Shown here: piece after piece, positions 46,461 through 60,361 of the stretch
How the letters are laid out: every line of letters starts with the position of its first letter
How positions within the stretch are numbered: the stretch's first letter is position 1
Assembly: GCA_004295055.1 (NCBI GenBank)
Contig: SHNJ01000012.1
Location: 62,001 to 126,000 of the forward strand
Direction of reading: 5' to 3'
DNA from: Alphaproteobacteria bacterium
GTDB lineage: Bacteria > Pseudomonadota > Alphaproteobacteria > SHNJ01
DNA: 64,000 nt
The notes under the pieces: generated by a model
Databases searched by the model: none
Told to the model about the DNA's origin: nothing
Seen by the model: only the letters and a program-made list of their open reading frames with translations
Translations under genes and position numbers: made by a program

Positions 46461-46530
46461 GGTTCGAGGTATCCGGTGCCAAGTTCCAGGTTGTTGACCT
46501 GAAACCCGTTACCTGATACCTGACACCTGT
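46461..46530. repeat. Intergenic inverted repeat A (TCAGGTA/TACCTGA units)
   Basis: The gap between rsfS and rlmH is filled by degenerate units: AGGTATCCGGTGCC..CCAGG on the left, ACCTGAAACCC and TACCTGATACCTGACACCT on the right. The arms are complementary around GGTTGTTGACC, so the whole gap can fold. The same units occur at 52826-52960. Confidence 0.7.
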
Positions 46531-51769: not shown

Positions 51770-52825
51770 ATGACCGTCCTTACCGCCGATAAAGCCCATA
51801 CCAAATTATCCTGGTGGGGCTTATTGGTTGTAGTGTTTTTATTTATCGCGGGTGTATCGGCCCTCATTGCCTGGGCCATGGTTCAGGCAGAAGACACCGC
51901 TTCGCGCCGCACATTGGCCATTCCCAGCGCCAGTTCTGATATCGCAGGGTCGGCAATAACTGCAGGCATTCAATCCATATTGGGTGCGATGGAAACGCCG
52001 CCGCTGCCGGATGTTGGTGAACAGGCTTCTCCTGTTTCCACCACCCCCGATTCCAGCCCCGATATTGCAGCACCCGCGCCTTTGCCGCCAGCCATTGTTT
52101 CCGGCATTCCATGGAAAGCCAATGCGGCACGATATGACCGGTCCGACAGCAGGCCTAAAATCGCGATTATTGTTACGGGCCTAGGCCTTAAAAAAGAAGA
52201 AACGGAATTGGCATTAAATGAATTGCCGCCACTGACCACTATCGGATTTTCGGTTTATGGCGAAAATCTTTTCTCGCTGATACAGCGCGTGCGTGCCAGA
52301 AACCAGGAAGCCTTGGTCGAATTGCCATTGGAGCCGGTTTATTATCCTGGCAGCGATCCGGGACCGCGCGCATTGTTTACCGATAAATCCTGGGACGAAA
52401 ATGCAAAAAATTTAGATTGGGTTTTAACCCAAGCCAAGGGCAGCGTGGGTCTACTGGCTTTTATGGGCGGGAAATATCTATCAAAAACCGGACCAATGAA
52501 GGCGGCTTTGTCCGAAATAAAACAGCAAGGTTATATTTTCGTCGATAACATGGCTTCGGTAAATTCCGTTACCGATCAAGTATCGGCCGATATCAAGTCG
52601 CAAATCGCCAGCGTCACATTACTGATAGACAGCGAGCCATCCCGGAGCGCGATCGACGCGCGATTGAAGGATCTGGAACAGCAAGCCAGAACCAGCGGAT
52701 ACGCGGTCGGCTTGGCACAGGCTTATCCTATCAGCGTGCGTAAAATCAAAGAATGGTCCCAAACGCTGGAGGCCAAAGGCCTTGTATTAATGCCAATCAC
52801 CGCAATGGTTGACATTGGGAAATAG
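51770..52825 (+). CDS. Divergent polysaccharide deacetylase family protein (DUF610)
   Basis: 351 residues: one N-terminal helix (WWGLLVVVFLFIAGVSALIA), a Pro/Ala/Ser-rich linker to about 115, then a deacetylase-like barrel: IAIIVTGLGLKKEETELAL, IGFSVYGENLFSLIQRVRA, VELPLEPVYYPGSDPGPRAL and SYAVG/AQAYP. In this family the usual metal Asp-His-His set is incomplete, and IVTGLG replaces the usual Asp motif. Typical neighbour of ctpA and rppH. Confidence 0.88.
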   Translation: MTVLTADKAHTKLSWWGLLVVVFLFIAGVSALIAWAMVQAEDTASRRTLAIPSASSDIAGSAITAGIQSILGAMETPPLPDVGEQASPVSTTPDSSPDIAAPAPLPPAIVSGIPWKANAARYDRSDSRPKIAIIVTGLGLKKEETELALNELPPLTTIGFSVYGENLFSLIQRVRARNQEALVELPLEPVYYPGSDPGPRALFTDKSWDENAKNLDWVLTQAKGSVGLLAFMGGKYLSKTGPMKAALSEIKQQGYIFVDNMASVNSVTDQVSADIKSQIASVTLLIDSEPSRSAIDARLKDLEQQARTSGYAVGLAQAYPISVRKIKEWSQTLEAKGLVLMPITAMVDIGK

Positions 52826-52960
52826 GTTTCAGGTATCAGGTACCCGGTGTCAGGTAGGTTATGGATTTATACGAGCAATTATTCTAAAATTCGATACCTA
52901 TTCCCAAAACCTGACTTTTTAATAATGATCCTGAAATCCGACACCCGACACCTGACACCT
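52826..52960. repeat. Intergenic inverted repeat B (TCAGGTA units), right arm enters rppH
   Basis: Left arm GGTTTCAGGTATCAGGTACC..GGTGTCAGGTAGG just after the DUF610 stop; right arm CCTGAAATCCGACACCCGAC then ACCTGACACCT. The arms are inverted complements with mismatches. TCAGGTATCAGGTA is shared with the reverse complement of the 46461-46530 repeat. Confidence 0.72.
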
Positions 52961-53419
52961 TCCCGTTACCGGCCCGGCGTCGGCATTATGTTATTGAACA
53001 AAAACCGCGAGGTTTTTGTCGGCCAGCGCGCCGATAAAATTGCCGATGCCTGGCAAATGCCGCAAGGCGGCATCGATGATGGCGAAAATCCAAGCGATGC
53101 GGTCTGGCGCGAATTGCGGGAAGAAGTTGGCACAGGCAAAGCGGATATTATCGCCGAAAGCAAAGATTGGCTGTATTACGATTTGCCATCCGATTTGCAG
53201 AAAAAATTATGGGGCGGAAAATATATTGGCCAACGGCAAAAATGGTTTGCCATGCGATTTACCGGGGTCGATGCCGATATTAAAATCGACGCGGACGCCA
53301 AGCCGGAATTTATAACTTGGCAATGGGCGCAACCCAATCAATTGCTGGATTTAATCGTGCCGTTCAAACGCGATGTTTACGCGCGGGTTTTGCAGGAATT
53401 TAAAAATTTACTATCCTAG
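52925..53419 (+). CDS. rppH: RNA pyrophosphohydrolase RppH
   Basis: 164 residues. Removes pyrophosphate from 5' ends of RNA. YRPGVGIMLLNKNREVFVG is the normal N-terminus of the domain, and the Nudix box is GGIDDGENPSDAVWRELREE then VG. The ATG at 52925 is the only close start; it puts the repeat arm in frame as about residues 2-13 (ILKSDTRHLTPS). No good ribosome site is seen. The stop overlaps the convergent elaA stop through CTAG. Confidence 0.92.
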   Translation: MILKSDTRHLTPSRYRPGVGIMLLNKNREVFVGQRADKIADAWQMPQGGIDDGENPSDAVWRELREEVGTGKADIIAESKDWLYYDLPSDLQKKLWGGKYIGQRQKWFAMRFTGVDADIKIDADAKPEFITWQWAQPNQLLDLIVPFKRDVYARVLQEFKNLLS

Positions 53420-53862
53420 GCAACTTTAATCATATCGATATGCATAATGCCAAGATCGTCATAAGGTTTGCCGCACGGCATAAAACCAAGATTGGAATAA
53501 AATTTCTCTAGCCGTTCTTGCGCACCGATTTTTATTGGAATGCCGGGAAATAATTCTGTCGATTTTTCCAGCGCCGCGGTCATTAATTGTTGCCCCAATC
53601 CTTGGCCGCGGAATTTTTGATCGGTGATAACGCGCTGAATTTTCACTTCGCTGCCCATATGATGTGGCGGCAGCAACCGCGCATAAGCGGCCAATTCCGG
53701 ACCCTGCCATAAACATAAATGCCAGGAAACTTGATCCAAATTATCCAGATCTGCCCAAGGACAATTTTGTTCAACCACAAATACATCGATACGCAGTTTT
53801 AAAATGGCATAAAGTTCATTCAAACTAAGCTGATCGAATTTCTTCCAGACCGGCTGCTGCAT
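53416..53862 (-). CDS. elaA: GNAT acetyltransferase, ElaA type
   Basis: 148 residues. ELYAILKLRIDVFVVEQNCP is the ElaA opening, and the acetyl-CoA loop is RGQGLGQQLM. The substrate of ElaA is unknown. Its start overlaps the stop of the ferritin-like gene (TAATG), so they are coupled. Confidence 0.93.
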   Translation of the reverse strand: MQQPVWKKFDQLSLNELYAILKLRIDVFVVEQNCPWADLDNLDQVSWHLCLWQGPELAAYARLLPPHHMGSEVKIQRVITDQKFRGQGLGQQLMTAALEKSTELFPGIPIKIGAQERLEKFYSNLGFMPCGKPYDDLGIMHIDMIKVA

Positions 53863-54698
53863 TACGCTGCCTGTTTCAAATCATTCGCCAGTTTGTGCAG
53901 ATTTTTTTGCATTTTTTTGTACGCCAGCGTTGTCAGCCAGGAATTCAATTTCCCGCCCGCTTTGAGGCCAGTTGCTTTCAATACCATACCAACCGCGCGC
54001 TCGATATGGTGGCGGCGGTAATAGGAATAAGCGCCGAACATATAGCGTTTATTGAATAATTCCCGGTCATAAGCTGTATTGTCGTTGGCCGCAAGATTGC
54101 CGGAATAATAGGCATAGGATAATTCATCATCCTCGGTTTCACTGATCCTGCCGATGGCGATCATCAATCGGCGCGGGAAAGAAATTTTTTCAATCGCCAC
54201 ATATTTTTTAAAATATTGGTAAAATAATTTGTAATGCCGGAATTCATCCGCGGCGATATGGCGGCAAATATCTTTTAATACCGGCTCGTCGGTCGATTCC
54301 ATCAGCGCCGTGTAATAGGAACTGGTTCCGGTTTCGACAATACAACGCGCAATCATCTCGCCAGCGCGCGATCCGCGCGCGGAAACGCCAGCCTGCACTG
54401 GAATTTGATAACCGGAGGTAAATTTTTGGAACGCATCTTCTAAATTGAATGTTGGATCGTATAATGACGCCCACTTACCAAGGCTTTGCCCGTGTTGAAT
54501 TTCTTCAATCCCCCAATCGCGCGCGGACGCGCAAAAATCGGGGTCATCCGCGAATACGGGTACCAAATGATCGGCATATTGTCCGCCATTATATTCCACC
54601 AACGCGGCGGCCTTGATCAATGGCACAATAGCAGGATCAACTTTGGACCTGTCGAATTTTTCCCAATCAATATCGGTTTGATAATCCCAATGTTTCAT
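53862..54698 (-). CDS. Ferritin-like diiron protein
   Basis: 278 residues. The four-helix diiron pattern is visible: Glu35 (ALVEYNGGQ), E66-I-Q-H69 (GIEEIQHG), Glu122 (IVETGTSSYY) and E152-F-R-H155 (AADEFRHYKLF). This two-ExxH arrangement is that of rubrerythrin, ferritin and acyl-ACP-desaturase-like proteins. The C-terminal 80 residues are basic and helical. Substrate unknown; an oxygen-dependent oxidase or desaturase-like role is possible. Confidence 0.82.
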   Translation of the reverse strand: MKHWDYQTDIDWEKFDRSKVDPAIVPLIKAAALVEYNGGQYADHLVPVFADDPDFCASARDWGIEEIQHGQSLGKWASLYDPTFNLEDAFQKFTSGYQIPVQAGVSARGSRAGEMIARCIVETGTSSYYTALMESTDEPVLKDICRHIAADEFRHYKLFYQYFKKYVAIEKISFPRRLMIAIGRISETEDDELSYAYYSGNLAANDNTAYDRELFNKRYMFGAYSYYRRHHIERAVGMVLKATGLKAGGKLNSWLTTLAYKKMQKNLHKLANDLKQAA

Positions 54699-54947: not shown

Positions 54948-54974
54948 AATAAAAAGGGGGCAAAAATGCCCCCT
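54948..54974 (-). terminator. Terminator of the atp / PanD-like operon
   Basis: On the minus strand GGGGGC, loop ATTTTT, GCCCCC, then TTTTTATT. Confidence 0.9.
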
Positions 54975-54997: not shown

Positions 54998-55408
54998 TTA
55001 AGCGGCACCGGCACGACGGCGGCGAGCATCCAAGAATTTCGCGGCGCCTTGATCGATGCTGTGGATTGGACGATTTTTCTCGTCCGTTGGAACTTCTTGC
55101 GGGATCCAGTTGCCGGCTGCGGCCGCTGGAACGCTGGCATAGGTCAAAATTTGAATAACATCGCCGGATTTCGCCAATTGGCTGCATCCGCCGTTAGTTT
55201 GAATAACGCCAGAGGCTTTTTTGCCTGGCAAAGCGTATGTGGTGAAATGAGCGCCAGTGGTGATATTGATGACTTGAACTTCCTGAAACTTGCCAATGCC
55301 AGCCATTTCCATCAATTTTTCATCGATGGTGATACCACCGTCGATATCGGAATCCGTGTCGGTAACTTTCACGCGCTGAATTTTACCGGAAAGCATTGTA
55401 ATCATCAT
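54998..55408 (-). CDS. PanD-like (aspartate 1-decarboxylase fold) protein lacking the processing serine
   Basis: 136 residues aligning without gaps to PanD over 1-76: MLSGKIQRVKVTDTD (Lys9 kept), GGITIDEKLMEMAGI, INITTGAHFTTYALPG and IQTNGG. In PanD, Ser25 of the Gly24-Ser25 bond becomes the pyruvoyl group; here the pair is Gly24-Gly25 (codons GGT GGT). Arg54, which binds the aspartate carboxylate, is His54. Tyr58 and Asn72 are kept. So it cannot form the cofactor by the known route, and beta-alanine synthesis is unlikely. It lies 22 bases after atpC in the F1 operon, ending at a terminator. The Arg/Ala-rich tail (DARRRRAGAA) is extra. Confidence 0.82.
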   Translation of the reverse strand: MMITMLSGKIQRVKVTDTDSDIDGGITIDEKLMEMAGIGKFQEVQVINITTGAHFTTYALPGKKASGVIQTNGGCSQLAKSGDVIQILTYASVPAAAAGNWIPQEVPTDEKNRPIHSIDQGAAKFLDARRRRAGAA

Positions 55409-55430
55409 GTGCTCAATCTCCCTATTTTGT

Positions 55431-55826
55431 TTAGGCCGCGACGGCCAACATGGCTTCGCAAACTTTTAACTCGGTGATCAAGGTATCTTGGGTCGGATCT
55501 TCTTGCAATTTTTTTGTAATATTTTCGATACGGGATACAACTTGTTCACGTTTTATCTCTTTGGCAGGTATAGCATAGTCAGCCAAAATGGTGCAATGGT
55601 TATTTTCTACCGCTGCAAAGCCCCCGGAGATAAATAAAGTTTCGCTATCGTTATTGTTAACCGGTTGAATTTTAATAATTCCCGGCCGAAGCGTGCTAAG
55701 AAACGGCGCATGCTTTGCCAGCACGCCAAAGTCGCCCTCCGTCCCCGGAATGACAACCATTTGCACTGGCTCCGACAGCAAGGTTTTGTCGGGCGCGATG
55801 ATATCGAGTTGAAAAGATTCGGCCAT
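55431..55826 (-). CDS. atpC: F1 ATP synthase epsilon subunit
   Basis: 131 residues. FQLDIIAPDKTLLSEPVQMV and PGTEGDFGVLAKHAPFLSTLRPG are typical of the beta-sandwich, with a short C-terminal helical pair. It couples rotation and can inhibit hydrolysis. Last ATP synthase gene of the operon, 8 bases after atpD. Confidence 0.97.
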   Translation of the reverse strand: MAESFQLDIIAPDKTLLSEPVQMVVIPGTEGDFGVLAKHAPFLSTLRPGIIKIQPVNNNDSETLFISGGFAAVENNHCTILADYAIPAKEIKREQVVSRIENITKKLQEDPTQDTLITELKVCEAMLAVAA

Positions 55827-55834
55827 GCGATTTC

Positions 55835-57286
<1,452 letters not shown>

Positions 57287-57303: not shown

Positions 57304-58194
57304 TTAGACCGCTTCGGCGCCAGAGACGATTTCGATCATCTCTTTGGTGATGTACGCTTGGCGCGCGCGGTTATAATTCAAATTCAATCTGTCGATTGCC
57401 TTGCCGGCGTTACGGGTGGCATTATCCATCGCCACCATCCGCGCGCCTTGTTCGGACGCGTTATTTTCCAGCAAAGCGCGGTAGATTTGCACGCGAATAT
57501 TGCGCGGCAAAAATTCAGCCAAAATTTCTTCCGGGCTTGGCTCGAACTCGTAAATCGCTTTTGGTTCCGATTTTTCTTCGTTTTGATTGGCGATCTTCGG
57601 CGCCATTGGAACCGGAATCAATTGCTGCGCGGTGACCACTTGGGTCATCGCGGATTTGAAATGGTTGTAAAATAACGTCGCAACATCAAATTTACCTTCG
57701 TTGAACAATTCCATCACTTTGCTGGCCACGCGTTCGGCATCGGCAAACGACAATTGTGGTTTGCCGATATCTTCCATCGTGCCAACGATGGAGTCGGCAA
57801 ATTCGCGGCGCAAGAAATCACGGCCCTTGCGGCCAACGCATAATACCAAAACTTTTTTGCCCAATTGGCGCAAACGCACGATTTCGGCGCGCGCACGGCG
57901 GGAAATCGATCCGTTGAACGCGCCGCAGAGGCCGCGATCAGACGTCATAACCACTAGTAAATGCACATCGTCCTTGCCAGTGCCGCGCATTAATACCGGC
58001 GCTTCGGACGCGCTGATATTTTGCGTTAAATTGGCCAGCATTTTTTCCATGGCTTGCGCGTATGGGCGGCCAGCGGCGGCGCGATCGGTGGCGCGTTTTA
58101 ATTTCGCGCCAGCGACCATTTTCATGGCTGACGTAATCTTACGCGTGGATTTCACGCTTTTGATTCGGTTTCTAAACTCTTTTAAACTCGGCAT
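57304..58194 (-). CDS. atpG: F1 ATP synthase gamma subunit
   Basis: 296 residues, the central rotor stalk. The N-terminal helix [20 protein letters not shown] with [15 protein letters not shown], the Rossmann-like middle ([13 protein letters not shown]) and the C-terminal helix [24 protein letters not shown] are characteristic. 28 bases after atpA. Confidence 0.98.
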
Positions 58195-58222: not shown

Positions 58223-59779
<1,557 letters not shown>

Positions 59780-59797: not shown

Positions 59798-60361
59798 CTA
59801 AGCGGCGCCTTTTAACGCCAGACTTAATCCTTCGAATTTGGTGCGCAAGGAACCGTCGATCATTGTCGATCCAACACGCACCGCAACGCCGCCAAGTAAA
59901 TTTGGATCTACCTTCGACGTTACGACAATTTTCTTGCCGGCAAACATTTTGCTGATTTCTGTTTGCAATTGCTGCATTTGCGCGGCTTCCAGTGGGCGCG
60001 CCGAGATTGCTTCGGCGGCGATTTCCCCGCGCATTTCCGCCAATTTTTCGGCAAACGATCCGACAATTTCAGGCAGTAAATTCAAACGATTATTATTCGC
60101 CAGCATTCCGGCGAAATTGACCAGCAATCCGCTGGCGCCCGATTTTTTCAAAATTTCCACGATGGCGTTTAATTTTTGTTCGCGGCGTAAAATCGGCGTT
60201 TCGATCAATGTTCTCAATTCCGGGCTTTGTTCAATCGCCGCGCCCAATTTCTGCAATTCTTGTTGAATAGTGTCGACGGCATTATTCTGAATCGCCAAAT
60301 CCAGCAAAGCCTTGCAAAAGCGATTGACCAATTGCGCGTTAACCGAATAAATTCCTGCCAC
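59798..60361 (-). CDS. atpH: F1 ATP synthase delta subunit
   Basis: 187 residues, the peripheral connection between F1 and the stator. VNRFCKALLDLAIQ, LRTLIETPILRREQK, LVNFAGMLANNNRLNLLPEIV and the C-terminal LGGVAVRVGSTMIDGSLRTK are typical. It is the first gene of the F1 operon; no F0 genes are here, as usual for alphaproteobacteria where F0 is elsewhere. Confidence 0.97.
   Translation of the reverse strand: MAGIYSVNAQLVNRFCKALLDLAIQNNAVDTIQQELQKLGAAIEQSPELRTLIETPILRREQKLNAIVEILKKSGASGLLVNFAGMLANNNRLNLLPEIVGSFAEKLAEMRGEIAAEAISARPLEAAQMQQLQTEISKMFAGKKIVVTSKVDPNLLGGVAVRVGSTMIDGSLRTKFEGLSLALKGAA

Follow-up and report, generated by a model that had tools for sequence, protein, structure and literature searches.

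A candidate PanD-fold pseudoenzyme encoded at the end of an F1 ATP synthase operon in an alphaproteobacterium

Introduction

The aspartate decarboxylase PanD (PF02261, TIGR00223) is a tetramer with four active sites located between its protomers (PMC4410942). Arg54 of each active site is supplied by the neighbouring subunit, and in the enzyme from Mycobacterium tuberculosis the ligand is held by this arginine and by the main chain at residues 74 and 75; the R54A variant is inactive (PMC6969166). Tyr22, Ile60 and Ile86 also lie near the active site, and the E. coli variant S25A, which lacks the serine that forms the pyruvoyl group, is a constitutively inactive zymogen (PMC3975893). S25A folds but cannot be cleaved (PDB 1pqe).

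Two described systems show how a protein without decarboxylase activity can act on a decarboxylase. The PanD regulator PanZ/PanM has no decarboxylase function, sits at the PanD protomer interfaces and tunes coenzyme A synthesis; it is confined to Gammaproteobacteria (PMC4537548). The trypanosome AdoMetDC prozyme is a dead paralogue of a pyruvoyl-dependent decarboxylase that regulates its partner, the active copy being encoded in the same genome (PMC5201418).

Here, a gene for a PanD-fold paralogue is described from a 64,000-nucleotide stretch of an alphaproteobacterial genome (the window). The paralogue resembles PanD in sequence family, length, gapless alignment and predicted fold, and shares with it Lys9, Gly24, Thr57, Tyr58, Asn72 and Gly73. 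It differs from PanD in lacking Ser25, and hence the pyruvoyl cofactor, and Arg54, in changes of Tyr22, Ile60, Ala76 and Ile86, in scoring below the equivalog cut-off, and in lying beside atpC instead of pan genes. It is predicted to behave as S25A does; however, S25A is an engineered single change, whereas the paralogue is natural and its pocket is reworked. Like the prozyme, it appears to be a dead copy accompanied by an active one, but the folds are unrelated, and the prozyme activates its partner, while a partnership of the paralogue is hypothetical. Unlike the paralogue, PanZ/PanM has a GNAT fold.

Results

The paralogue gene closes the atpHAGDC operon

The features of the locus are as follows.

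54955-54974, minus strand: intrinsic terminator (AGGGGGCATTTTTGCCCCCT, then TTTTATT), 23 bases past the stop of the paralogue
54998-55408, minus strand: 136-aa PanD-fold paralogue lacking the cleavage serine (PF02261, E 2e-31; AF2 pLDDT 91)
55247-55249, minus strand: codon 54, CAT (His), where the substrate-binding Arg54 is expected
55334-55339, minus strand: codons 24-25, GGT GGT (Gly-Gly), where the Gly-Ser cleavage site is expected
55418-55423, minus strand: RBS-like AGGGAG, 9 bases 5' of the ATG of the paralogue, read by eye
55431-55826, minus strand: atpC, F1 epsilon (PF02823, E 1e-27)
55835-57274, minus strand: atpD, F1 beta (recognised from its translation by sequence)
57304-58194, minus strand: atpG, F1 gamma (recognised from its translation by sequence)
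58223-59752, minus strand: atpA, F1 alpha (recognised from its translation by sequence)
59798-60361, minus strand: atpH, F1 delta (recognised from its translation by sequence)

The paralogue is the final gene of the operon. As had been described in the initial annotation, its reading frame is intact, without internal stops, begins 22 bases past the stop of atpC and is terminated together with the operon: the terminator lies directly 3' of its stop and was the best and the sole good one found by a terminator scan of the region. With a codon score of 0.56 bits per codon, the paralogue resembled the atp genes and exceeded atpC and the two genes past the terminator. Gene order, the terminator and codon usage lead us to infer that it is co-produced with the subunits of the F1 ATP synthase.

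A GNAT protein encoded at 53416-53862 was considered as a PanZ/PanM-like partner and rejected, since it matches PRK10314 (ElaA), lies past the terminator, and PanM is gammaproteobacterial only. Its neighbour at 53862-54698 (minus strand) encodes a ferritin/diiron-like protein, with matches to the fatty acid desaturase, rubrerythrin and AurF models all below their cut-offs. Elsewhere in the window, a 7-base unit (CAGGTATCAGGTGTC...) recurs in overlapping copies of either orientation, forming two intergenic clusters at 46466-46529 and 52823-52961; a 12-mer of this repeat had 13 matches in the window as compared with 1.5 expected.

The paralogue belongs to the PanD family and is predicted to adopt its fold

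The paralogue matched Pfam Asp_decarbox over residues 1-113 (profile positions 1-113 of 115) with 108 bits (cut-off, 25). By itself, this match would lead to its being labelled an aspartate decarboxylase. With the NCBIfam panD equivalog TIGR00223 it scored 95.4 bits, below the curated cut-off of 106; the genome's own canonical panD reached 148 and an Omnitrophota homologue (L074) 129. The AF2 model showed a confident PanD fold, i.e., a double-psi beta barrel, and its best Foldseek matches in the PDB were two E. coli mutants that stay uncleaved, G24S and S25A (1pqf and 1pqe; TM 0.98, rmsd 0.7 Å).

The gapless alignment with PanD that had been claimed at the outset extends further, from residue 1 to 105-116, with both the M. 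tuberculosis and the E. coli enzymes, and a register error at position 25 is therefore impossible. A cleavage serine at a shifted position is ruled out by this alignment and by the lack of any serine in the paralogue from residue 21 to 65.

Changes are concentrated around the active site

To analyze the conservation of the active site, 164 distinct PanD relatives were compared; they stem from members of the class and of the phylum, from Omnitrophota and from viral contigs. Ser25, Tyr22, Lys9, Tyr58 and Gly73 were invariant (164 of 164), and Arg54 was present in all but one (163 of 164). Gly25, found in the paralogue, occurred in none of them. The only homologue without Arg54 was the second PanD copy of an Omnitrophota genome (G776; L211 / L215 4180-4560), which carries His54 together with Ser25. 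The initial annotation had named the replacements Ser25 to Gly (codon GGT) and Arg54 to His, as well as the retention of Lys9, Tyr58 and Asn72, all of which were confirmed; Thr57 and Gly73 are retained too.

The list of replaced active-site residues proved incomplete. In a 73-sequence set, 27 columns were conserved to at least 90%, and the paralogue differed at ten of them (11, 22, 25, 42, 54, 60, 74, 75, 76 and 86). Nearly all of these ten surround the active site. The other homologues showed a mean of 0.7 and at most 8 such changes. Besides positions 25 and 54, the replacements include His11Gln, Tyr22Ile, Ile60Leu, Ala74Gly, Ala75Cys, Ala76Ser and Ile86Gln; residues 11 and 76 presumably line the pocket as well. 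Outside the active site, the conserved columns (15, 16, 29, 48, 66, 83, 103, 109 and 112) are unchanged. One Omnitrophota PanD, with Ser25 and Arg54, adjoining panC and the sole copy of its genome, has Gln11, Gly74 and Cys75; thus, these three replacements alone are no sign of inactivity.

Since both S25A and R54A are inactive, the loss of both residues leaves the paralogue without a known route to decarboxylation. Judged by its sequence, it would be catalytically dead, a candidate PanD-fold pseudoenzyme rather than a PanD enzyme.

A canonical panD is present in the same genome

A search of the rest of the genome, which had been proposed as a check, revealed a canonical panD on another contig (G000:C6:7858-8193; 166 bits), with Glu-Gly-Ser and Arg54. 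It is followed by panB and panC in a complete panD-panB-panC cluster (the genome is 99% complete), and its product is presumably active. Thus, the paralogue is not needed for pantothenate synthesis, and the possibility that it is the genome's only panD is ruled out.

The paralogue shares about 37% identity with this canonical PanD, which does not fit a recent duplicate; the tree neither backs nor rejects sisterhood of the two (AU p 0.19). The branch of the paralogue is long (1.56 changes per column) and was placed near the base of the careful tree, a placement that is unsure, and the genome's own canonical panD grouped with a PanD from a viral contig. In the first tree, the paralogue had grouped with the Omnitrophota homologue L074 and a PanD from an Alsobacter prophage (L075), both of which had been picked by motifs taken from the paralogue query; this grouping vanished with more rows. 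Since the phylogeny of PanD conflicts with that of 16S (PMC4537548), horizontal transfer is a plausible origin of the paralogue.

PanD homologues with Ser25 were also observed in the apparent Alsobacter prophage (L075, 5944-6390) and on several viral contigs (L084-L093). PanD genes thus seem to travel with phages, and some of the viral contigs may be host DNA. Another genome of the same class (G383) carries two PanD copies on one contig (C9; L076 and L077), both with Ser25 and Arg54.

Orthologues and signs of selection

Across about 980 genomes (class, 385; phylum, 399; order, 2; Omnitrophota, 237), no hit was closer than 45% and none qualified as an orthologue of the paralogue; phages, plasmids and viral contigs yielded no orthologue either. 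The order was sampled through two genomes; the second, at 57% completeness, had neither an orthologue nor an atpC match. Scans of 84,980 species for the Gly-Gly or His54 motifs returned 49 stretches, none of them a PanD; these scans were restrictive and run without a positive control, so that divergent orthologues would be missed. The alignments used for them (A1-A8) contained invented filler residues and served as search devices only, lending no biological support. Two candidate relatives were dismissed: L046 is a chance match to a short motif, and L078 is not a PanD. Clustering beside atpC, which had been proposed as a check, was not observed elsewhere: no PanD relative lay within about 1.5 kb of atpC at 29 loci from other members of the class. 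Among the papers searched, there was no PanD paralogue beside atpC and no serine-less PanD.

When neutral substitution of the genome's own panD was simulated down to 40% identity, with indels ignored, about 5% of the runs remained free of stops. The intact frame, the strong codon usage and the concentration of losses at the active site suggest that the paralogue is probably kept by selection; the failure to find an orthologue counts against its maintenance and would also fit a recent inactivation of the gene.

Discussion

The paralogue is probably a catalytically dead but maintained protein with a non-catalytic role, irrespective of any specific partner. Its sequence and predicted structure suggest that the chain would fold as PanD and stay permanently uncleaved, because there is no serine to form the pyruvoyl group, and that the aspartate pocket has been rebuilt. 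Produced along with the F1 ATP synthase subunits, the protein would work by binding rather than by catalysis. Among specific mechanisms, we tentatively rate as likeliest that it joins tetramers with the cell's active PanD. As the active sites lie between protomers, one providing the cofactor and the other Arg54, and the paralogue lacks both Ser25 and Arg54, it could spoil a site from either side, and a dominant-negative regulator is therefore the simplest specific mechanism, the negative counterpart of the AdoMetDC prozyme. Every mixed interface would be silenced, and the synthesis of beta-alanine and coenzyme A would be turned down. Co-assembly is far from certain, since identity to the genome's own PanD is about 37% and sisterhood is unsettled. 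That an uncleavable PanD made with the ATP synthase silences shared active sites and so couples coenzyme A supply to synthesis of the energy machinery is a speculative extension of this mechanism.

A sub-case of the dead-paralogue reading that competes with the mixed tetramer, and that we hold about as possible, is a stand-alone pseudoenzyme. Unrelated to active PanD, it would form homotetramers and serve to sense or buffer a different small molecule, held in the altered pocket (Gln11, Ile22, Gly25, His54, Gly-Cys at 74-75 and Gln86). The retained fold and the retained residues Lys9, Thr57, Tyr58, Asn72 and Gly73 fit this proposal. Moreover, the E. coli variant T57V, although uncleaved, binds malonate via Lys9 and Arg54 (PMC3975893), so that an uncleaved pocket is able to bind a ligand; the paralogue, however, has lost Arg54, the main carboxylate anchor. 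Somewhat more doubtful is a vestigial gene, i.e., an acquired or duplicated active PanD that was inactivated, drifts, and persists only through a highly expressed operon. Its long branch, the lack of an orthologue in the search and its redundancy beside the canonical panD would be explained in this way. Against drift speak an intact frame without any indel over residues 1-116, codon usage as strong as that of the atp genes and the loss of conserved columns at the active site while those elsewhere were kept.

The initial annotation had also proposed a non-enzymatic PanD-fold protein linked to the ATP synthase. The dead PanD fold within the atp operon is well supported, whereas the functional link draws solely on where the gene lies in a single genome. 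An F1-binding subunit or regulator with the PanD fold is unlikely. The position as last gene of atpHAGDC, 22 bases past atpC and ahead of the operon terminator, argues for it, and the genome had no match to the alphaproteobacterial F1 inhibitor zeta (PF07345), which was detected in Caulobacter, the only control compared; against it stands the absence of a PanD relative near atpC at all 29 loci read from other members of the class. For an enzyme of different chemistry, the second earlier proposal, no support was obtained. Lys9, Tyr58 and Asn72 could in principle build another, pyruvoyl-free active site with the new Cys75 and His54, but Cys75 occurs in a PanD that bears Ser25 and His54 in another, and we know of no pyruvoyl-free PanD-fold enzyme; we regard this reading as very improbable. 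An assembly or sequencing error that masks a normal PanD appears least credible of all. Both cleavage codons do read GGT, as had been pointed out, but the argument that this speaks against a sequencing slip carries little weight, since Ser25 to Gly (AGT to GGT) and Arg54 to His (CGT to CAT) are each one base from the canonical codon. Instead, the differences at no fewer than nine separate active-site positions and the canonical panD on another contig of the same genome speak against an error.

For the PanD family, the favored reading of a maintained, catalytically dead paralogue yields a candidate natural pseudoenzyme with a reworked pocket, in a family for which the literature search found no described pseudoenzymes. 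All other PanD relatives examined, even the very divergent ones from viral contigs, retain the serine that forms the cofactor; a natural PanD unable to form it, standing beside a working copy and co-expressed with the ATP synthase, would be a pseudoenzyme. Since the PanD active site is shared by two subunits, the mixed tetramer offers a simple, testable model of control via a dead subunit and, if true, would add a prozyme-like regulator to vitamin B5 synthesis.
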